Assembly: GCF_019343495.1 (NCBI RefSeq)
Contig: NZ_CP072549.1
Coordinates: 1,674,001-1,738,000 of the forward strand
Length of the DNA stretch: 64,000 bases
Direction of reading: 5' to 3'
Origin: Acinetobacter lwoffii
GTDB lineage: Bacteria; Pseudomonadota; Gammaproteobacteria; Pseudomonadales; Moraxellaceae
Of this stretch, positions 5,463 to 60,997 are shown piece by piece (the stretch's first letter is position 1; the number at the start of each line of letters is the position of its first letter). The translations under genes were made by a program, and so were the position numbers. The notes under the pieces were generated by a model. The model had not been told where the DNA came from. It searched no databases and saw nothing but the letters and a program-made list of their open reading frames with translations.

Positions 5463-8270
5463 ATGTCAACGATCAACAAAAAGCTGTTTAAACGCCTACA
5501 CTTAAATCATGCCTATGGACAGCTGATTGCGCTGATTTTTGTGCCGATTACCATTTTGGCCTGTGTCGGTGCCATGCTGGTGTTGACTGAAACCTCGAAT
5601 GCCGCACGTGCCCAGCAGAAGCAGATGGCCATTGCGATTCTGACCCGCTTTCAAGGTACTTCAGAATATGCACTGGATATCTTGAACCTGTATCCATGGC
5701 AATATGACCAGGCCCACAATGCCATGCAGAACATGCTGAATGAAAAGCATCTGGTTCGGGCAGCGGTTCTGGACGAAAATGGCAAGAACCGTTTGGGCAT
5801 CGGTTTTCAGGAACAGGCACCTTGGCCAGAATTTGAGAAAAGCGGCAATTTTATTGGCCCGATTCTGCATCAAGATAATCATATCTATGCCATTAAAGTG
5901 AATGAAAACACTTTTTCTACCGGCTGGCTGGCGATCGAACTGGATAACCAGCCGCTAGCAATTGCCCGTTACCGAGTACTGATCGTACTGATTGCGACCG
6001 GATTACTGACCTTATTATTGTTATTACTTTGCTTGAATTTCTACTCACGGCGCTGGATCGCCCCAATGTATGAGATTCGCATGCAATTGCAACGCCTGAA
6101 TGCCGATACCCTCGGCCAGCATATGGTGATTAACAGCACCGGCGAGCTGCGTTTATTGCAACGTGATATCGCCAATGTGGTGAAGCGTTTGCATTTCAGC
6201 TTTCTGGAACTGCGTGAACATACCGAACAGACCGAAGACGATTTACGCCGCACCCTCGACACTTTAGAAGTCCAGAATATTACCTATCGTCAGGCACGCG
6301 ACCAGGCGATCTCGGCCAACCAGGCCAAGTCGGTGTTTCTGGCCAATATTTCCCATGAATTGCGCACCCCGCTGAACAGTATTGATGGTTTTATTCATCT
6401 GTTGTTACGTCAGGGCAATCTCAGCAACGAGCAGAGCCTGTATTTGCAGACCATTCGTAAGTCTTCGGCGCATTTGCTGGCACTGATCAATGATGTTCTG
6501 GATTTTTCCAAAATTGATGCCGGCAAACTGGAACTGGAAACGGCACCTTTTGATCTGGAAGAAGCGATTTTTGATGTGATGGACATGTTGTCACCTCTGG
6601 CAGCACAAAAACATATTGATATGGCCTTCTATTATGCAGATGGTGTGCCAAAACACATTATTGGTGATGCGCTACGATTTAAACAGATTCTGACCAACCT
6701 GATTTCCAATGCGATCAAATTCACTCCGGATGGAGAAATCATTGTCCGGGCACGCATGGAACATGATGGAATGGATCAGTGTGTGCTGCATTTTAGTGTA
6801 CAGGATAGCGGCATTGGCCTGAGTGGTACCGACCGTAAAAAGCTGTTTGAGTCCTTCTCGCAGGGTGATACCTCGGTAACCCGTCAGTTTGGCGGTACCG
6901 GTCTTGGTCTGGCAATTTCCAAACAGCTGGTCAGCCTGATGCATGGCCAGATTGGCTTTGAAGACAATCAGGAACGTGCCCCAACCGAAAAAGGCTCGAC
7001 CTTCTGGTTTACTGCCCAGTTCCTGGTCGATGAAGATACCGTGATTGAGCATCCAGATTTTAGCGAATTGACCGTGGTGTCTTATCTTGCACATCCGGCA
7101 ACTGCGAATGTGCTGCGGCATTATCTGGAAAATTATCAGGTTAAACATATTGAATGTGCATCAATTCTGGATCTGTTTAGCCGTCTGAATCATTTACAGA
7201 ATAGCGAAAATACCTGGCTGATCGTCGATCATAGTGGTGACAGTGAAGTCTTGTTACGCGAAATCCGTTCACGTTATCAGGGTCATCTGGCTGTCTATGG
7301 TTATCAGATGCAACTGGATCCAAGCATGCTCAATGACCATCGTGCCCGTGCCCTGCATCAGCCACTCAGCCGCAGCGCGCTGATTCAATTACTCGGCAAT
7401 CAGCCGGTCTTCGATCAGGAACAGCATGAAGAATTCAATGGTCAAGGCCTGCATATTCTGGCCGTGGATGATCATTTGCCCAACCTGATTGTTCTGGAAG
7501 CCTTGCTGGGCGAACTCAATGTCACCACGACCAAAGCCCTCAGCGGACAGGAAGCGATCGATATTATTCAGCGCCGTTATGAACAGGAACAACCGGCGTT
7601 TGATCTGGTGTTTATGGACATTCAGATGCCGGTGATGTCGGGGATCGATACCACCCGTGCCATTCGCTCGCTGGAATCGACCTTTGAAAATCATAGTCGC
7701 CTGCCAATTATCGCCCTGACGGCGCATGCACTTTCTGATGAAAAACATAAACTGCTGCAAAACGGCATGGATGATTATGTCACCAAGCCGATCCAGATCG
7801 AGCAGATTATCCAAATTTTGACGCACTGGACCACCGAGCATTTTAAACGGATTCCGGTACTGGAACGTGCCAATGTGATTGATGCCCTGGATCCAAATAT
7901 TCTGGACTGGCAGCAAAGCCTTCAACTGGCAGCCAATAAGGAAGATCTAGCGGTAGACCTGTTACGCATGCTGGTGGACAGCTTTGCAGATGAACTCGAT
8001 GAAATGCAGCAACTGATTGAACTGGAAGATTTTCCACAACTTGAACATGTGCTGCATCGTCTTTACGGTGCAACCCGCTATGTCGGTGCCCCCACTTTAC
8101 AGAAAGTTACGGGTGGCTTTGAACAGTTCGTTTCGACCTTGCGTAAAGAACGTCGTAAGGCCGATGAAAGCTTTGTTCAAGACGTGTTGAAATATTTTGA
8201 TGAACTCAAAGCCGTGGTTGAACAGGTTGAACAGGCTGCCCAGCAAATTTTGAAGCAACATTTGAATTAA
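5463..8270 (+). CDS. gacS: GacS/BarA-type hybrid sensor histidine kinase
   Basis: Membrane sensor kinase that phosphorylates the response regulator GacA and, in relatives, controls the Rsm/Csr small-RNA pathway. 935 residues (E. coli BarA 918). Order: transmembrane helix near 20-42; a periplasmic sensor of about 120 residues; a second helix near 170-192; HAMP; a coiled coil; HisKA with phosphoacceptor His298 in NISHELRTPLNS; and HATPase with N-box LISNAIKFT and DSGIGL/GGTGLGLAI. A degenerate receiver-like linker follows. Then comes a true receiver with Asp719 in FMDIQMPVMSG and a C-terminal Hpt domain with His865 in LHRLYGATRYVGA. The full phosphorelay is intact. The linker without a receiver Asp is normal for this family. 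Confidence 0.95.
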   Translation: MSTINKKLFKRLHLNHAYGQLIALIFVPITILACVGAMLVLTETSNAARAQQKQMAIAILTRFQGTSEYALDILNLYPWQYDQAHNAMQNMLNEKHLVRAAVLDENGKNRLGIGFQEQAPWPEFEKSGNFIGPILHQDNHIYAIKVNENTFSTGWLAIELDNQPLAIARYRVLIVLIATGLLTLLLLLLCLNFYSRRWIAPMYEIRMQLQRLNADTLGQHMVINSTGELRLLQRDIANVVKRLHFSFLELREHTEQTEDDLRRTLDTLEVQNITYRQARDQAISANQAKSVFLANISHELRTPLNSIDGFIHLLLRQGNLSNEQSLYLQTIRKSSAHLLALINDVLDFSKIDAGKLELETAPFDLEEAIFDVMDMLSPLAAQKHIDMAFYYADGVPKHIIGDALRFKQILTNLISNAIKFTPDGEIIVRARMEHDGMDQCVLHFSVQDSGIGLSGTDRKKLFESFSQGDTSVTRQFGGTGLGLAISKQLVSLMHGQIGFEDNQERAPTEKGSTFWFTAQFLVDEDTVIEHPDFSELTVVSYLAHPATANVLRHYLENYQVKHIECASILDLFSRLNHLQNSENTWLIVDHSGDSEVLLREIRSRYQGHLAVYGYQMQLDPSMLNDHRARALHQPLSRSALIQLLGNQPVFDQEQHEEFNGQGLHILAVDDHLPNLIVLEALLGELNVTTTKALSGQEAIDIIQRRYEQEQPAFDLVFMDIQMPVMSGIDTTRAIRSLESTFENHSRLPIIALTAHALSDEKHKLLQNGMDDYVTKPIQIEQIIQILTHWTTEHFKRIPVLERANVIDALDPNILDWQQSLQLAANKEDLAVDLLRMLVDSFADELDEMQQLIELEDFPQLEHVLHRLYGATRYVGAPTLQKVTGGFEQFVSTLRKERRKADESFVQDVLKYFDELKAVVEQVEQAAQQILKQHLN

Positions 8271-8280
8271 ACCTCTGAAG

Positions 8281-8341
8281 TGGCTCAGTCCATGACTTAA
8301 GAAGTGTGACTGAGCTGTCATGCAAGCCCAAAGGCTGCATG
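8281..8341 (+). other. Two tandem hairpins after gacS
   Basis: First hairpin: eight paired bases GCTCAGTC (8283-8290) with GACTGAGC (8308-8315). Second: ATGCAAGCC (8320-8328) with GGCTGCAT (8333-8340), one base short of perfect. Neither is followed by a run of T, so they are not typical intrinsic terminators. They may stabilise the gacS mRNA end or act in the leader of the next gene. Confidence 0.4.
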
Positions 8342-8376
8342 CTATGCTCAAGCCAGGAAAAATAAGGAAGAATGCC

Positions 8377-9165
8377 ATGTCACTCGTGCGCTTGGAAAAA
8401 AATAACGGCATTGCCACTGTTACACTGAATCGTCCGGATAAACGCAATGCCATGAGCTTTGCCCTGCTGCGCGAACTGGTCGCGACTGCACAAAAAATCA
8501 AAAAAGATAAAAGCATCCGATGTGTGATTTTAACGGGAGAAGCCCAGGTCTTTAGTGCCGGTATTGATCTGGCCGATTTAAATAATCCTAAAAATCGTGC
8601 TTATGCCGCATGGGAACTTATTCGTCCGGGTCAAAGCCTGTTTCAAAAAGCATTTCTGGTCTGGCAGGAATTGCCAGTCCCGGTGATTGCAGCGATGGAA
8701 GGCTTCTGTTTTGGTGCCGGCATGCAGCTTGCTCTGGCCGCAGATATCCGCATTGCCCATCCTGAGACCAAAATGTCAATTATGGAAACCCGTTGGGGAC
8801 TGGTACCAGACATGGGACTCAGCCGCTCACTGAAAGGCCTGATTGGTATTGATCTGGCCAAAGAGCTGACTTTGACTGCCCGGATTTTTGAGGGCGAATA
8901 TGCCAAAGAAATCGGTCTGATCACCCATGTCGATGAACAGCCATTGGCGAGAGCACAAGCCTTGGCTGAAGAAATGCTGCAACGTTCTCCAGATGCCCTG
9001 ATGGCTTCTAAATTTGTACTGGATGCCATGCAGCATCGTCCGAATAAATCCCTGCGTATGGAAAAAATCTGGCAGCTGAAATTATTACTGGGTAAAAACA
9101 GTCAATTGGCCCGTAAAAAGGACAAAAACCCAGAGGTTCAGTTTGTACCGCGCCAATACAAATAA
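8377..9165 (+). CDS. Crotonase / enoyl-CoA hydratase-isomerase family protein
   Basis: Acyl-CoA enzyme of the crotonase fold, 262 residues from the ATG at 8377. That start has AAGGAAG six bases upstream; the frame is open further 5' but lacks a ribosome site there. Oxyanion-hole segments are visible: FSAGIDLADL and FCFGAGMQLALAADIRIA. The acidic residue of METRWGLVPDMG fits a hydratase or isomerase active site. Which acyl-CoA it uses cannot be told. It may be co-transcribed with the dehydrogenase 36 bases downstream. Confidence 0.85.
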   Translation: MSLVRLEKNNGIATVTLNRPDKRNAMSFALLRELVATAQKIKKDKSIRCVILTGEAQVFSAGIDLADLNNPKNRAYAAWELIRPGQSLFQKAFLVWQELPVPVIAAMEGFCFGAGMQLALAADIRIAHPETKMSIMETRWGLVPDMGLSRSLKGLIGIDLAKELTLTARIFEGEYAKEIGLITHVDEQPLARAQALAEEMLQRSPDALMASKFVLDAMQHRPNKSLRMEKIWQLKLLLGKNSQLARKKDKNPEVQFVPRQYK

Positions 9166-9201
9166 ACCCAGTCTGAATCTAGGAAAGGAATAAACCAAAG
9201 C

Positions 9202-10071
9202 ATGCAGTTGAATCGCGATACTAAAATTGCCTTTTTAGGTATGGGGCTGATGGGCACTCGCATGGCCACACGTCTGCTTCAAGCAGGTTTTCAGGTGGCA
9301 GTCTGGAACCGCACACCTGCGGCCTGTTATCCGCTGTTAGACTTAGGCGCGACTGCGCTGTCTTTAGACCAGATTGCCAATTATCCGGTCATTCTCAGCT
9401 GCTTGGCAGATGATCAGGCAGTGCAATCTGTTTTTGCTCAGATCGAACCGTATTTGGTTGCGGAGCAAGTGATTGTGGATTTTTCTAGTCTTTCGGTACA
9501 GCAAACTCAAGCACTTGCCGCGCAAGCACAGGCCAAGAAAGTAATCTGGATTGACTCTCCAGTTTCAGGCGGTACCGCCGGAGCTGAACAAGGCAGTCTG
9601 GTGATTTTTGCCGGTGGTAATGCCGCGACTATTGAAAATCTTAATCCGATCTATGCAGTACTTTCACAACGCGTGACCCGCATGGGTGATACGGGTACCG
9701 GTCAGGCGACTAAAATCTGTAATCAGCTGATTGTGGCTGCCAATAGCACCTTGATCGCAGAAGCGGTCGCCCTTGCTGGACTTGCCGGGGTGGATACACG
9801 TTTACTGGCGCCTGCGCTGGCGGGTGGTTTTGCCGACTCCAAGCCTTTTCAGATTCTGGCACCGCGTATGGCCACGCAAACTTTTGAACCGGTGCAATGG
9901 AAAGTACAGACCTTATCCAAGGATCTGAATAATGCCGTGCAACTGGCACAAAGCTTTGACCTGGATGTTCCGGTGGCGACTCAAGCTTTAACGCAGTTAC
10001 ATGCTCATCAAGCCCAAGGCTTTGCCGAAGCAGATCTGGCTACTGTAATCCAGCAACTAAAACATTCATAA
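9202..10071 (+). CDS. NAD(P)-dependent beta-hydroxyacid dehydrogenase (3-hydroxyisobutyrate / tartronate-semialdehyde reductase family)
   Basis: 289 residues, the usual length for HIBADH/GarR/GlxR enzymes. The N-terminal Rossmann motif is FLGMGLMGTRMATRLL. The substrate segment DSPVSGGTAGAEQGSL and the catalytic lysine in GTGQATKICNQLIVAAN are intact. The ATG is preceded by AGGAAAGGA-type purines. The next gene looks like hydroxypyruvate isomerase, so reduction of tartronate semialdehyde is a reasonable guess; 3-hydroxyisobutyrate or a short-chain aldehyde-acid are alternatives. No glyoxylate carboligase gene is present in the window. Confidence 0.85.
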   Translation: MQLNRDTKIAFLGMGLMGTRMATRLLQAGFQVAVWNRTPAACYPLLDLGATALSLDQIANYPVILSCLADDQAVQSVFAQIEPYLVAEQVIVDFSSLSVQQTQALAAQAQAKKVIWIDSPVSGGTAGAEQGSLVIFAGGNAATIENLNPIYAVLSQRVTRMGDTGTGQATKICNQLIVAANSTLIAEAVALAGLAGVDTRLLAPALAGGFADSKPFQILAPRMATQTFEPVQWKVQTLSKDLNNAVQLAQSFDLDVPVATQALTQLHAHQAQGFAEADLATVIQQLKHS

Positions 10072-10110
10072 CGCTTGATTGATGCGGCCTTGAATATTGA
10101 AGAGAAAGAC

Positions 10111-10899
10111 ATGATTAAACTTGCCGTCAACCTGTCGATGATTTTTACCGAAGTGCCGCTGATCGAACGTTTCGCGCTGGCTCGTGCACAGGGCTTTAAT
10201 CATGCGGAAATCCAGTTTCCTTATGAACTTACGATTGGCCAGATTCAAAACCAGCTCAGCACCCATCAGCTAAACTTGTGCCTGATTAATGTGCCGGCAG
10301 GTAATTTAATGCAGGGCGGTCATGGTCTGGCTGGCATTCCAGGACAGGAAATCGAGTTTCGTCATGCGGTTGAGCAGGCCATCCAGTATGCTACCGCATT
10401 GAATGTACCTCGGGTGAACATTCTGGCAGGAAAACAGCCTAGAGATTGTGATCTTTTACCCTGCCTGAATACGCTGGCGAGTAACCTAAAAATGGCCTGT
10501 TCAATGCTGCTTGAGCATCAAATTGAACCGGTCTTCGAAATGATCAATGGCACCGATATGCCACGTTTTTTGATTCAAAATGTTGCCCAAGCCCAGGAAA
10601 TGCTGGAAGCGGTACATCATCCGGCCTTAAAAATGCAGTATGACTGTTACCACATGGCAATGATGGGCGAAGATGTCCTGGAAACTTTGCAAGAAAATAT
10701 TGCCTCGATTGGTCATATCCAGTTTGCGGATTGTCCGGGACGACATCAACCCAATACGGGCTCAATTCGATATCATGATATATTTCAGTGGTTAAAACAT
10801 AGTCAATATCAAGGTTATGTCGCTGCCGAGTATAAACCCAGCGGACATTCCAACGATTCCTTTGACTGGAAAGCTGAGTTCTTTCCGGAGCATGACTGA
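10111..10899 (+). CDS. hyi: Hydroxypyruvate isomerase-like TIM-barrel protein
   Basis: 262 residues from the ATG at 10111. The upstream in-frame TTG at 10075 is less likely because it abuts the previous stop codon. The start MIKLAVNLSMIFTEVPLIERF and the metal-site residues in EPVFEMINGTDMPRF, QYDCYHMAMM, HIQFADCPGRHQP and AAEYKPSG match the Hyi/xylose-isomerase-like barrel. It interconverts hydroxypyruvate and tartronate semialdehyde in relatives. It follows the hydroxyacid dehydrogenase by 39 bases, and the pair makes biochemical sense. The substrate is inferred only. Confidence 0.8.
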   Translation: MIKLAVNLSMIFTEVPLIERFALARAQGFNHAEIQFPYELTIGQIQNQLSTHQLNLCLINVPAGNLMQGGHGLAGIPGQEIEFRHAVEQAIQYATALNVPRVNILAGKQPRDCDLLPCLNTLASNLKMACSMLLEHQIEPVFEMINGTDMPRFLIQNVAQAQEMLEAVHHPALKMQYDCYHMAMMGEDVLETLQENIASIGHIQFADCPGRHQPNTGSIRYHDIFQWLKHSQYQGYVAAEYKPSGHSNDSFDWKAEFFPEHD

Positions 10900-10980
10900 G
10901 TGGACTGCGGCTTCATTTGAAATTCAGGACTAAAACCGCTATATTAGACCATGCATAATTGTTAGGAAATTACACTCCCC

Positions 10981-11388
10981 ATGAATTTAGAACCATCGCC
11001 CAGCGCTTCTAATTCTCACGATCTTACTATGAATTCAAATTCTCAAGCTGTACAGGACTGCTTAAAAGTCGTACATGCTGCACTTGAAGATGTAAAAGCA
11101 AAAGAAATTGTTGAGCTTGATGTCAGCGGTATCAGTAATGTGGCTGATGCTATGGTCATTGCAAGCGGTACATCGACACGTCACATCAAATCATTGGCCA
11201 ATAACGTTGCTGAAGAAGCACGTAAAGCTGGCTTCCGCCCTCTTGGTATTGAAGGCGAACGTGATGCTGAATGGATCCTCATCGACCTTGGTTATGTGGT
11301 GGTTCATTGTATGCTTCCAACAGCGCGTAAATTCTATGACCTAGAAAGCTTATGGCGCAATCCTACAGATACTGACTCTGTAGCGTAA
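10981..11388 (+). CDS. rsfS: RsfS, ribosome silencing factor (Iojap/YbeB family)
   Basis: 135 residues. Binds uL14 on the large subunit and blocks subunit joining when nutrients are scarce. Family signatures are clear: KAKEIVELDVSGIS, ADAMVIASGTSTRHIKSLA, GEAEWILIDLG-like (here GERDAEWILIDLGYVVVH) and FYDLESLW. The ATG at 10981 has TAGGAA 12 bases upstream, slightly far. A second ATG at 11029 has no ribosome site. The N-terminal 16 residues are Ser/Asn-rich and poorly conserved in relatives. The gene is monocistronic, with an intrinsic terminator directly after. Confidence 0.93.
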   Translation: MNLEPSPSASNSHDLTMNSNSQAVQDCLKVVHAALEDVKAKEIVELDVSGISNVADAMVIASGTSTRHIKSLANNVAEEARKAGFRPLGIEGERDAEWILIDLGYVVVHCMLPTARKFYDLESLWRNPTDTDSVA

Positions 11389-56418: not shown

Positions 56419-57060
<642 letters not shown>

Positions 57061-57077
57061 GCTCGCCAATGAATTTC

Positions 57078-57104
57078 AAAAGAGCGCTGATGCGCTCTTT
57101 TTTT
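57078..57104 (+). terminator. Terminator of xpt
   Basis: AAAGAGCGC and GCGCTCTTT pair around TGAT, followed by T run. Confidence 0.92.
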
Positions 57105-57320
57105 ATTGCGTTTTTCTGATGATATAAATTTAAAATATCCAAAACTCGGCTATAGCTCAGCCTAAATTCTTATTTATTCTTCCAGATTTGATCCTAGATA
57201 AATGACTTAATCTTAAGCTCCAGACTACTCAATTTCTGAAATAGAGAGTGTCAAACAATAAGTACTTTTTTATCCGATGAATAAACAACAATTTATGTGG
57301 ATGTTATTATAAAATAAAGA

Positions 57321-57348
57321 GGCCTAACTATCTGCCAATAGTTAGACC
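57321..57348 (-). terminator. Weak terminator for the CsgG-like operon
   Basis: CTAACTAT (57324-57331) pairs with ATAGTTAG (57338-57345). On the minus strand a T-rich CTTTATTTTA tail follows within a few bases. It lies 24 bases beyond the last gene of the operon. Confidence 0.6.
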
Positions 57349-57371
57349 TGTGTTCACCTCGAAAAAAGAGT

Positions 57372-58046
57372 TTATTTAACAGTCACAGTGATACTACCGC
57401 TATTCACAGCACCGATAGCGGTAGTTGTGATGCTGTTGTTAATAGCAGTTTGAGTTCCTTCTGAAATAGCACTGACAGATGCATCAATAGCACCCGCATT
57501 ATAGGCAATATTCGCTACACTATAATTGCTTAAAGTTTCATTGATTTCCTCACTATAGTCAGTACTCAGTGTCGAACTTATAACTTCCGAGATATCTGAA
57601 CTATCCGAAACCTCTGATAGCTCCTCTAGAGTTTCAGAATTATTAGTTGCACTGGTTACTGCACTGTAGTCGTAGTTATCCGTGGCATCTGATATGTCTG
57701 ATACCACCTTATTGTAGCTACCCTGCTCAATACTGATACTACCTGTATTCGCGGCACCAATCGCAGTAGTTTCAATTGTACCTTCAATTGAACTAATGGC
57801 CTCTGGTGCTTCTCTTGTAGCTTCTGCAATTGCTTCTAAATCAACGCTTGCATCAACATCACCTGTATTCACTGCAAGATTCAAAGCAGAACCATTTTCA
57901 ACCTGCTGAGAAATAGAATCCAAGGTAGCTTGCAAGCCTGTATCTACGGTGACGTCAGTAGGTGTTTCATCTCCTTGGGCATATGCCATACCTGCGCTAG
58001 ACAGAAAGGCGACGGATAAAGCGATTGTTTTGATCGTGTTTTTCAT
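57372..58046 (-). CDS. Secreted repeat protein, probable fibre subunit of a CsgG/HfaB-type system
   Basis: 224 residues. Signal peptide ends at AYA (residue 23). Low complexity, acidic, rich in Ser/Thr/Asn/Ala/Ile with no Cys. Two imperfect internal copies carry the blocks NLAVNTGDVDASV (56-68) and NIAYNAGAIDASV (179-191). Each is followed by TTAIGAANTGSIS (93-105) or TTAIGAVNSGSIT (208-220). A QGSYNKV segment (108-114) recalls curlin QxGxxN repeats. It is the last gene of the operon, 84 bases from the CsgG-like gene. Role as polymer subunit is inferred. Confidence 0.65.
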   Translation of the reverse strand: MKNTIKTIALSVAFLSSAGMAYAQGDETPTDVTVDTGLQATLDSISQQVENGSALNLAVNTGDVDASVDLEAIAEATREAPEAISSIEGTIETTAIGAANTGSISIEQGSYNKVVSDISDATDNYDYSAVTSATNNSETLEELSEVSDSSDISEVISSTLSTDYSEEINETLSNYSVANIAYNAGAIDASVSAISEGTQTAINNSITTTAIGAVNSGSITVTVK

Positions 58047-58130
58047 CGTTGTTCTTCCTACTTTTGTTTTGAAGTACCTCTCGCTAAGTACTCCTTCTTA
58101 TAATGGGAGCGAGCCCATTTTTAAATATTT

Positions 58131-59336
58131 TTAATCACGCTGGGTGCTAGACCAGTAATTTTCGACCACCTCAGGATTGGCCTCCCATAGCGTTGTGGTT
58201 TTTTCATCTTCTTGTTCTTTATCAGCCTTTTCTTGAGTATCTTTTTCTTCATTCTTTTCATTTGAAGAAGGTGGATGCTGCTTCTTGCTAATATATTTAA
58301 TCAAGTCCTGTTTGCTCATTTCAGGCTCTGCTTCAGGGTTTTGAATCACCTCGGACTCTTTCTGTTTTGGCGGTTTCGTATCTTTGCTCGGTGAGTTGGT
58401 TGACTTATTTTTTTCATTAGATGAGTCTGCCTGGCTTGAGACTGACTCCTGAACAACACTGCTTGAAGCTGTACTATTTTGTTGCTGGTTTTTCTTGTAT
58501 TTATGCAGAGCGACAGAACTTCGGGTTAAGTTCAATTGACCAAACTCTGGCGGTATCTGCGCACGGCAACTTTCAAATACGGCGGGTGGGACAACCTGAC
58601 TCAGCAATTCAAAAGTGGCCAGATTCAACATTTGCCGCAAGGCAAAGTTAGTTGCCTCTCGTTCTCCTTTTCCAATCTGAATATTTAAGAGTGTACGACC
58701 AGCGAATCTGCCTGCACTTAAGCCATAATCCTGTGCAGCAATTTGCTTCTGCAATGAAACATTGCCCACGACTTTACTGCTGCGGGTATCAGTCAAAGAT
58801 AAATCCAGACCGACCATAATCCGGGTTTGACTATAATTCGGACCGACACCAGCGATCTGCATGTCAAAACCACCACCCGGAATAAAATCCAGACTGTTAA
58901 TACTGCCTGTCACATAATAATCAGAAGCCTGGATTTGTCTTGGATCACGAATGCCCCACTTGGCTTCGCTTTCGATAATCCGGGGATCACGCCGGTTCAT
59001 TAAGCTTACCCCCGCCTGAAACAAGGCAGATTGCACCATATCTCCCGCACCTTGGGTCACCATTTTTCCGCTACCACCATTGGTAACTACATCCTTACCG
59101 GTTTGATCCAGAATTGCCCCCACGGAGAAACTCACATCACTACGTAATTGTCCTTTTAGGCAGGATAAAGCCATATCAAAAGGGGTAAAAATATCGGTAA
59201 TTGGGGGGCCTTGTACCAGGCTAACTGGCTTCTTGTTTGAAGGTGCCAAGCCTGTGCAGCCTGTTAAAAAAGAGCTGAAAAGGACAGTGGCACTCACGAA
59301 AGATATATGTCTTCTGGTCGAGGAGAAATTCAACAT
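58131..59336 (-). CDS. CsgG/HfaB-type outer-membrane secretion lipoprotein
   Basis: 401 residues. Lipobox LTGC with Cys27. The CsgG-like body (about 40-270) shows FDMALSCLKGQLRSDVSFSVG, FIPGGGFDMQIAGVGPNY, RIMVGLDLSLTDTRSSKVVG and the C-terminal helix region. CsgG forms a nine-fold channel that exports unfolded fibre subunits. A low-complexity charged tail of more than 100 residues (Lys/Glu/Ser-rich) follows, absent from the 277-residue E. coli CsgG. ATG overlaps the upstream gene by seven bases, with AGGAG seven bases upstream inside it. The HfaB assignment is the nearest I know. Confidence 0.78.
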   Translation of the reverse strand: MLNFSSTRRHISFVSATVLFSSFLTGCTGLAPSNKKPVSLVQGPPITDIFTPFDMALSCLKGQLRSDVSFSVGAILDQTGKDVVTNGGSGKMVTQGAGDMVQSALFQAGVSLMNRRDPRIIESEAKWGIRDPRQIQASDYYVTGSINSLDFIPGGGFDMQIAGVGPNYSQTRIMVGLDLSLTDTRSSKVVGNVSLQKQIAAQDYGLSAGRFAGRTLLNIQIGKGEREATNFALRQMLNLATFELLSQVVPPAVFESCRAQIPPEFGQLNLTRSSVALHKYKKNQQQNSTASSSVVQESVSSQADSSNEKNKSTNSPSKDTKPPKQKESEVIQNPEAEPEMSKQDLIKYISKKQHPPSSNEKNEEKDTQEKADKEQEDEKTTTLWEANPEVVENYWSSTQRD

Positions 59337-59707
59337 TGTGATTCTCCTGGTCTGTTACTTAAATTAAGACAGCGCTGAGGATTTTGGTTGGTATTTGAAT
59401 TGACTGGTGCTTCATTCAGCAACTCACTCGTAATATCGATACTGTTGTCTGTACCCTCTACATTGATATTGTTGGTCGGGGTATTTACCGTCCCGATGGA
59501 GGTGGTCGAAGTGCTATGAACGGTGGTTTTACCTAATCCGGAATAATAGTCTGACTCCTTAAGTTCGATCAGATTGGCTTGAACTAGATTCTCATTGGAA
59601 CGGGCACTGGATGATTTCCAACGCTGAGTCCACTCATCAGAGGTGGCATAAGCGTTACTCAGAAAACATAAACCTAATAAACCCAGATTGATAACTAATA
59701 TTCTCAT
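59330..59707 (-). CDS. Small secreted protein, possible HfaA-like minor subunit
   Basis: 125 residues. Signal peptide ends at NAYA (residue 21). The mature protein holds TTSIGTVNTPTNNINVEG (68-85) and GTDNSIDI, matching the motif in the repeat protein of the same operon. Two late Cys (113 and 125) are present. It is translationally coupled to the CsgG-like gene by a seven-base overlap. It may nucleate or anchor the fibre as CsgB or HfaA do; this is inference from context and motif, not similarity I can measure. Confidence 0.6.
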   Translation of the reverse strand: MRILVINLGLLGLCFLSNAYATSDEWTQRWKSSSARSNENLVQANLIELKESDYYSGLGKTTVHSTSTTSIGTVNTPTNNINVEGTDNSIDITSELLNEAPVNSNTNQNPQRCLNLSNRPGESQC

Positions 59708-60553
59708 AATCTTAATATCCTCTGATTTAAGATATTTATTTAATTTTTCGTTTAAGTAAGATTAAATTTATCTGAAAAATATTAAATCACATAAAATTAT
59801 AAAATGTAGAAAATATCCCTATTCACATATTTTTTTGTTTTATTTAAAAATATAAATTATTGTTTTTATTAAATTAATATATATTTGTTTATTATTTGTG
59901 ATTTGTAAGAAATCATTATATAAATTTTTTTTGAATATAAAATTCATCCAAAAAACTTGATTAAGATAATATATTTTTTATATTATCAATAATCAAAAAT
60001 TTATCTAATAAAGATTAGAATTATTATACTTTTTATATTTTAAAAGTCGTAAATTTTTATTTTATTAGAACTTCTATTTAATAAGGATAAATGTCACGAT
60101 TTATTTAAAATATAATTAATCAATTACAATGAAGGTGACTTATAAAGAAACGCCAATATTCAGATGTATTTTGGCTGAAAACTTGAATAGACCTGATAAG
60201 AACTCGTTTACATATTTTTCGACTTCCCTTCCTTTTTCATTTCGAATCCAGAAATGGCCTACCTAAGATCGCAATATTTAGACTGATGAGAGAAGAACAT
60301 TTCTGATGATCTTGAGATTTGCCATTTCCTCAATGACAGGTTAAGAATTGCGTTAATCAACCAAGAAGGCATATATTTACAGCTGAAATACAATGTTTTA
60401 GCGTGAACTCAACTAGAATCAAGTGAGTATGCAATGTTTCTGATTTGCGAATTCAAAACTTATCTAGTGTGTTGTTGTATGTTATGAATACGTGCTGATC
60501 AGGGCACACATCCTATTCCCGACAAACCTAAAACAAGCACATCTCAATCCTTG
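59708..60553. other. About 0.85-kb extremely AT-rich intergenic region upstream of the CsgG-like operon
   Basis: The first 420 bases are almost pure A/T with runs of A and T and no gene. It must carry the operon promoter on the minus strand and perhaps the promoter of the plus-strand gene at 60554. The 60130-60553 part is less AT-rich but also holds no gene I can support. Such DNA is typical of H-NS-type silencing and regulatory bending. Confidence 0.6.
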
Positions 60554-60997
60554 ATGGAACAATCTATGCAATGTCCTAAATGTGGCTCAGCTGATATCGA
60601 ACAGCGCGATCATGAGCAGAATTTAAAGAAAATTGGCGGCATTCTCATGAGTTCAGCGGGTGCAACTGCAGGGACTGTGGGTGGCGCTGCTTCAGGTGCA
60701 TCGATTGGCGCTGCAATTGGTACAGTAGCCGGACCTTTAGGTGTGATTGTCGGCGGAACCGTAGGCACTTTTGTCGGTGCAATCAGTGTCGGGATTACCG
60801 GCGGTGTGGTCGGTAATTTTCTGGGGAAAAAAGCCGGGGTTTCTGTCGACCGTAATCTGTTTCAGGATTATCAATGTCTGAAATGCAAATACAGATTTAG
60901 TCAAAAAGATCAAAAAGATCAAAAAGATCAAAAAGATCAAAAAGATCAAAAAGATCAAAAAGATCAAAAAGATCAAAAAGATCAAAAAGAAGCCTAA
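60554..60997 (+). CDS. Glycine-zipper membrane protein with split zinc ribbon and QKD-repeat tail
   Basis: 147 residues from the ATG at 60554 (an internal ATG at 60566 is possible). CPKCGS (Cys7, Cys10) near the start and CLKC (Cys108, Cys111) near residue 110 together look like one zinc ribbon divided by a glycine-zipper segment (about 28-91, Gly/Ala-rich). The C-terminal tail is nine perfect QKD tripeptides (117-143) plus QKEA, encoded by 9-base direct repeats. No good ribosome site is visible. Function unknown; membrane insertion is inferred. Confidence 0.7.
   Translation: MEQSMQCPKCGSADIEQRDHEQNLKKIGGILMSSAGATAGTVGGAASGASIGAAIGTVAGPLGVIVGGTVGTFVGAISVGITGGVVGNFLGKKAGVSVDRNLFQDYQCLKCKYRFSQKDQKDQKDQKDQKDQKDQKDQKDQKDQKEA
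60902..60991 (+). repeat. Nine-base tandem repeat (CAAAAAGAT) with nine perfect copies plus one variant
   Basis: Unit CAAAAAGAT is repeated at 60902-60982 and followed by CAAAAAGAA. Being a multiple of three, copy-number change alters tail length without shifting the frame. This is a typical slippage-prone microsatellite. Confidence 0.95.

Follow-up and report, generated by a model that had tools for sequence, protein, structure and literature searches.

Curli and the HfaABD anchor of the Caulobacter holdfast are the closest described systems in which small surface proteins accompany a CsgG-type lipoprotein, and the parts of PMC6707917 available to us still call the HfaB-type protein a putative translocon. 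Here we compare with these systems a locus of Acinetobacter lwoffii found in a stretch of 64,000 nucleotides (contig NZ_CP072549.1, positions 1,674,001 to 1,738,000), referred to as the window. Three minus-strand genes, in the transcription order A-B-D, span 57372-59707 of the window. Gene A (59330..59707) encodes 125 residues, gene B (58131..59336) a CsgG/HfaB-family lipoprotein of 401 residues and gene D (57372..58046) 224 residues; the coordinates and lengths of these open reading frames (ORFs) are exactly those of an earlier, sequence-only reading of the window. The locus is probably a self-contained HfaABD-like secretion cassette in which B would be the channel that exports A and D to the surface, a view based on the family of B, its fold and the linkage of the three genes. 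The cassette is a new branch among the HfaB/CsgG-type secretion systems. No paper among the literature matches listed could be tied to the A-B-D trio.

The CsgG-like protein B

Protein B matches the CsgG family PF03783 at 43.3 bits (Pfam cut-off 20.8), so that its description as CsgG-like in the sequence-only reading was borne out. It also matches the NCBIfam HfaB equivalog clearly, at 95 bits, although the cut-off of 300 is not reached. The signal sequence and lipobox (59256..59336, minus strand) end, as judged by eye, in LTGC at Cys27, and in the alignment Cys occupies the same position in 69/71 window-type rows, 13 of 14 HfaB rows (proteins from loci above the HfaB cut-off) and 12 of 12 CsgG rows. 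The core covers about residues 40-262. In the predicted model (predicted local distance difference test score, pLDDT, 66.9; predicted template modelling score, pTM, 0.55; tail low) B has the CsgG fold with two membrane hairpins: CsgG is clearly the best structural match, over residues 44-270 with both predicted hairpins included, and no HfaB structure is among those listed as matching the model.

At the level of residues, with 29 positions tabulated and 10 of them counted in full, B is mixed between HfaB-like and CsgG-like. Cys59 and Cys257 are conserved in 70/71 and 69/71 window-type rows, respectively, the exceptions being L128 and the truncated L127. Both are present in 14/14 HfaB rows, in 4/7 and 7/7 intermediate rows and in 0/12 CsgG rows. 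Asp178 and Gln198 follow the same pattern, common to B and HfaB and not found in the CsgG rows, and Gly73 and Arg234 nearly do so. Gly163 and Gly165 occur in 71/71 window-type and 11/12 CsgG rows and in only 0/14 and 1/14 HfaB rows.

The tree was calculated from 76 rows, with 29 loci omitted that are chiefly Acinetobacter near-copies. Window-type B forms one clade of 41 rows with support 95/98; HfaB and the intermediate forms make up a second (86/75), and 11 of the 12 CsgG rows, with L128, a third group (100/100) that leaves B outside. The twelfth CsgG row, L147, is on a very long branch and is probably a wrongly picked ORF. Because the root is arbitrary and some of the branches are long, the tree is silent on whether HfaB or CsgG is nearer to B.

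Beyond the core, B runs into a variable, charged low-complexity tail that closes with the strongly kept peptide ENYWSSTQRD (58131-58163). NYW is found near the end in 26/28 Acinetobacter rows, and 10/14 HfaB rows finish in W-x3-R-D plus a few residues; the peptide is too short for this Trp-Arg-Asp likeness to carry weight.

Linkage and distribution of the cassette

B was found in 29 of 119 Acinetobacter genomes. A profile made from D gave strong matches in the same 29 genomes and one marginal match elsewhere (G047, E 8e-4). In all 28 Acinetobacter loci that are not split between contigs, A, B and D lie in this order on one strand. The 29th genome, G037, has the trio rearranged across two contigs (L061 and L062), with two copies of D and fragments of B, as in a cassette that has been rearranged or duplicated. 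The 7-base overlap of A and B (59330-59336 in the window) is conserved in 27/28 loci, the exception being L051, where the script chose another start; this overlap and the 84-base gap between B and D (58047-58130) are as first described. B is apparently broken in A. lwoffii VE196-10 (L118, and L042 in G058, which counts among the 28 loci and has B as two ORFs) and in Brucella oryzae (L127), with A still beside it.

In 20 of the 29 carrier genomes, the trio adjoins one and the same phosphoribosyltransferase gene. Eight others have it at what are apparently six different sites, judged by the lengths of neighbouring genes (L049; L053; L054; L056 and L057; L058 and L059; L060), and L055 is on a contig too short for its site to be assigned. 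The phosphoribosyltransferase gene was also found in every one of 20 genomes that lack B. The usual right-hand neighbour or neighbours (Zn-ribbon protein, flavoprotein or YihY) lie within the fetched 1.5 kb in 11 of them, and none was recognised within that distance in the other nine. There is a strong suggestion that the A-B-D cassette moves as a unit. No gene family recurs beside it among 82 neighbouring genes, hand-chosen from 224 ORFs of at least 150 residues in 29 non-Acinetobacter loci and from eight Acinetobacter loci, and an additional constant partner was ruled out within this set; the neighbour calls are longest-ORF guesses, some of which in GC-rich genomes (GC, guanine plus cytosine) are surely false. 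At L058, an AraC-type regulator and a chaperone-usher fimbrial cluster lie upstream of the cassette, and the genes at L059 have the same lengths. This cluster is local to the surroundings of L058 and was rejected as a partner.

The sequence-only reading had taken the locus for an Acinetobacter system, but it is not genus-specific. Other bacterial classes carry it, in Rhodobacterales and other alphaproteobacteria, Polynucleobacter, Polaromonas, a Methylophilales bacterium and Desulforhopalus. A Pacificitalea plasmid has the same gene order, and its B shows 47% identity over residues 25-275; just upstream of its A is another small, lipoprotein-like gene, which contains AEAGGGNAGASASQ repeats (L064:6516-7124). 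When one genome of each species was scanned, 64 loci emerged. Acinetobacter or its family accounts for 30; of the remaining 34, all but L080 and L128 have a recognised B ORF, which leaves 32. Profiles built from Acinetobacter only (E <1e-3) recognise A in 28 of the 32, D in 20 and both in 19; profiles widened by the proteins of the 32 loci themselves, and therefore partly circular, recognise A in 32/32 and D in 26/32. The best matches to A and D are on the strand of B and within about 1.7 kb of it. Exceptions to the HfaABD gene order otherwise present in the cassette are Polynucleobacter, in which D comes before A, and Desulforhopalus, in which A comes after B. A second D-like gene is seen with the widened profile in five loci, and L122 and L123 have an extra A-like ORF on the opposite strand.

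Outside these loci, the clade of window-type B is rare. Among 369 genomes sampled from the class, the genome of the window alone gave a match to B at E 1e-10. In 398 sampled from the phylum, 19 match; the genome of the window scores 576 bits, the next 139, and the other 18 matches are HfaB, intermediate and CsgG forms. The linkage of the partners to B, assumed in the sequence-only reading, holds, and since the ordered trio recurs throughout Acinetobacter and, in diverged form, in other classes, the observation is more than chance.

The small proteins and the control region

A and D both begin with a signal-peptide-like sequence; judged by eye, Sec signal peptides are likely at both N-termini. 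Neither has a Pfam match at E ≤1 or any match near a curated cut-off in NCBIfam. The two halves of D are alike, none of 1000 shuffles reaching the score of the internal repeat. The N-x-A-x-N and G-A core is kept in both copies at 90% or more in an alignment of 44 rows. The predicted model places beta-rich modules at residues 53-108 (57723..57890, minus strand; LAVNTGDVDASV ... TAIGAANTGSISI) and 176-223 (57378..57521, minus strand; VANIAYNAGAIDASV ... TAIGAVNSGSITV), with block pLDDT values of 61-85, separated by a variable, poorly predicted linker.

A occupies the position of HfaA. Its family keeps an N-terminal W...L.QA.LIE..E..YY segment (W...L.QANLIEL.ESDYY in the window) and a short SIG...N motif, here TSIGTVNTPTNNINVEGTDNSIDI, and its repeat-like motif covers residues 66-93 (59429..59512, minus strand). 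Two cysteines, C-terminal in the protein of the window, are found in the mature part in 28/29 Acinetobacter rows (the remaining row has three) and in 17/23 others. For comparison with the holdfast proteins, 10 HfaA and four HfaD rows were named by us from position and the motif [ST]A[IV][GA]N, one HfaA row being taken from L172, a locus below the HfaB cut-off. With hhalign, the widened A set matches these 10 HfaA rows at E 2.8e-4 (probability 41%), and the Acinetobacter A set alone matches them at E 0.018 (2.6%); the best match of D to the four HfaD rows has E 0.009 (4.4%).

The motif that A and D were first thought to share is not above chance in the pair from the window, whose score is reached by 287 of 1000 shuffles, and pairwise homology was rejected. 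Between the profiles there is a likeness in a short [ST]-x-[SA]-[IV]-G-x-x-N motif, with E 2e-4 and probability 47% for the non-Acinetobacter sets and, more weakly, E 0.005 and 7% for the Acinetobacter sets.

Upstream of A is an AT-rich leader (59708..60550, minus strand) with a GC content of 24.7% over 843 bp and 16.6% in the 500 bp adjoining A. When 843-bp stretches of the window were taken every 100 bp, one of 632 was as GC-poor, and this one possibly overlaps the leader. The 500 bp 5' of A have 14.0-24.0% GC in 26 of 27 Acinetobacter loci, several of which are near-copies from one species group (L041 was measured over 255 bp and L044 was too short), and the operon itself has 39.7-45.4%. 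The exception in both respects is L054 (43.6% and 53.2%, respectively). The leader is probably the control region and the target of a silencer. In the accessible parts of PMC8446060, H-NS represses a CsgG/HfaB protein in A. baumannii, possibly another gene, and H-NS may likewise silence the operon of the window. At the other end, a terminator-like hairpin 3' of D (57320..57349, minus strand) has 13 pairs followed by a T-rich tail; four terminator-like sites were found in 57060-60560, where 2.3 are expected from shuffles. Small hairpins in the gap between B and D are no stronger than in shuffles (z −0.96) and were discarded as a signal. The leader is adjoined by a gene for a small glycine-rich protein (60551-60997) whose start resembles a Zn ribbon (its matches in Pfam stay under the cut-offs) and which has a C-terminal long run of Lys-Asp-Gln repeats.

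Explanations and known systems

In the secretion cassette as we envisage it, B would be a ring-shaped CsgG-type channel held in the outer membrane by lipid anchors, and A and D would cross the inner membrane via Sec and exit through B. The main subunit at the surface would probably be D, with its two beta modules; it would make, or become part of, an adhesive layer or a fibre of amyloid-like or beta-solenoid type. A would probably be a minor partner that nucleates D or fixes it at B. The operon would be held off through its AT-rich leader until the silencer is relieved. The CsgG/HfaB nature of B and the operon proposed in the sequence-only reading are supported, its confinement to Acinetobacter is not, and a role at the surface, as fibre or anchor, is plausible by homology.

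Several observations weigh against such a cassette. The score of B is far under the HfaB equivalog cut-off, and Gly163 and Gly165 link B to CsgG and not to HfaB. Even the widened profile does not recognise D in 6/32 non-Acinetobacter loci; of these six, L069 lies at the end of a contig. The match of A to HfaA is weak and that of D to HfaD not significant. Mature-part cysteines are absent from 7/10 HfaA rows, the rest having one, in contrast to A, and a disulfide in A, if formed in the periplasm, would make passage through a CsgG-type pore harder. The overall confidence of the D model is modest (pLDDT 60.8, pTM 0.42), and no PDB structure matches it below E 2.5, none being significant, so that no named fold is claimed for D.

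If, in the manner of the Caulobacter holdfast, B exported A and D as surface tethers for keeping an exopolysaccharide on the cell, there would be no free fibre. We consider this rather unlikely. The gene order equals that at the HfaB loci, Cys59, Cys257, Asp178 and Gln198 are common to B and HfaB and not to the CsgG rows, and searches of the genome for polysaccharide genes, which covered Wza-type exporters and PgaA, found three of the former. No PgaA was found, however, nor is there a gene family recurring beside the cassette. Near-full PgaA matches are not enriched with B (15/29 against 34/90 genomes, Fisher p 0.20), those above the curated cut-off being in 12/29 and 31/90, and a poly-N-acetylglucosamine partner was ruled out by the absence of PgaA and its lack of enrichment in carriers. 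That B might be an envelope scaffold with a CsgG-like fold, as are PelC, FlgT and LpoB, with A and D acting inside the envelope, is very improbable given that CsgG is so clearly the top structural match, hairpins included, and that the tree places B with HfaB and CsgG, far from its LpoB-operon paralogue.

That paralogue belongs to a second CsgG-domain locus of the same genome, L063 (G000:C1:1918668-1935090, 7806-11347), consisting of a TPR protein, DUF1425, LpoB and a CsgG-like protein, possibly the operon called 'csgG' in A. baumannii papers. Least credible of all, in our view, is that the A-B-D cassette itself is that operon. As far as the accessible parts of PMC8446060, PMC3224125, PMC3483291 and PMC10038080 go, A. 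baumannii has a genomic island with three lipoproteins and an H-NS-repressed CsgG/HfaB protein tied to the biofilm matrix. The family name and the number of genes agree, and on these excerpts repression by H-NS would be in keeping with the AT-rich leader. By the same excerpts, the island has three lipoproteins where here, by eye, B alone has a lipobox, and the DUF1425-LpoB-CsgG locus fits the description better; nor is there an A. baumannii record among the 64 loci of the scan or an Acinetobacter plasmid among 10 records matching B. The three-gene 'csgG' operons of PMC3224125 and PMC3483291 may, from what could be seen of these papers, be another locus.

Since the unit recurs in distantly related bacteria, the secretion cassette is probably a little-studied route for a surface adhesive protein. 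If so, curli and holdfast anchors would be two cases within a wider set of CsgG-type exporters that differ in cargo. Being so small, the cassette could be rebuilt in laboratory E. coli, so that the idea of an HfaB-type translocon is directly testable. It would also explain curli-like material from Acinetobacter without csg genes; the text of the curli survey PMC3521004 mentions neither Acinetobacter nor HfaB. The parts of PMC6026672 available describe an A. lwoffii isolate (16S identification) with a fibrous, Congo-red-binding biofilm ascribed to curli and cellulose, and on that basis it is a possible case only. Going further, and only tentatively, one might see here a third class of CsgG-type secretion that depends neither on curli nor on holdfast polysaccharide. 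It would be a mobile kit of three genes, spread between bacterial classes, with one channel for the export of a small anchor, A, and of at least one two-module subunit, D, that assembles an amyloid-like surface fibre. Such a kit could account for the Congo-red-binding 'curli' of that isolate.

Of the known systems, the CsgG-LpoB-DUF1425 operon of the same genome has the CsgG Pfam domain in common with the cassette and differs in its partners, LpoB, DUF1425 and a TPR protein, and in the very long branch that separates it from B. With curli, the cassette has in common the CsgG domain, the lipobox, the predicted CsgG fold and Gly163 and Gly165. Canonical curli was nevertheless ruled out, as the sequence-only reading had held: CsgE, CsgF and the curlin repeat PF07012 have no match in the genome at E 1e-3, with E. 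coli as a positive control (CsgD was not searched for), B is outside the CsgG clade and the repeats of the cargo differ. From HfaABD the cassette differs in that B reaches 95 bits against a 300-bit cut-off and forms a separate clade, that relatedness to the HfaA and HfaD rows used is weak for A and not detectable for D, and that no neighbours recur beside it. What the two have in common is the order A-B-D around a CsgG-type lipoprotein B, the residues Cys59, Cys257, Asp178 and Gln198, absent from the CsgG rows, and an [ST]AIG motif in the small partners of both.
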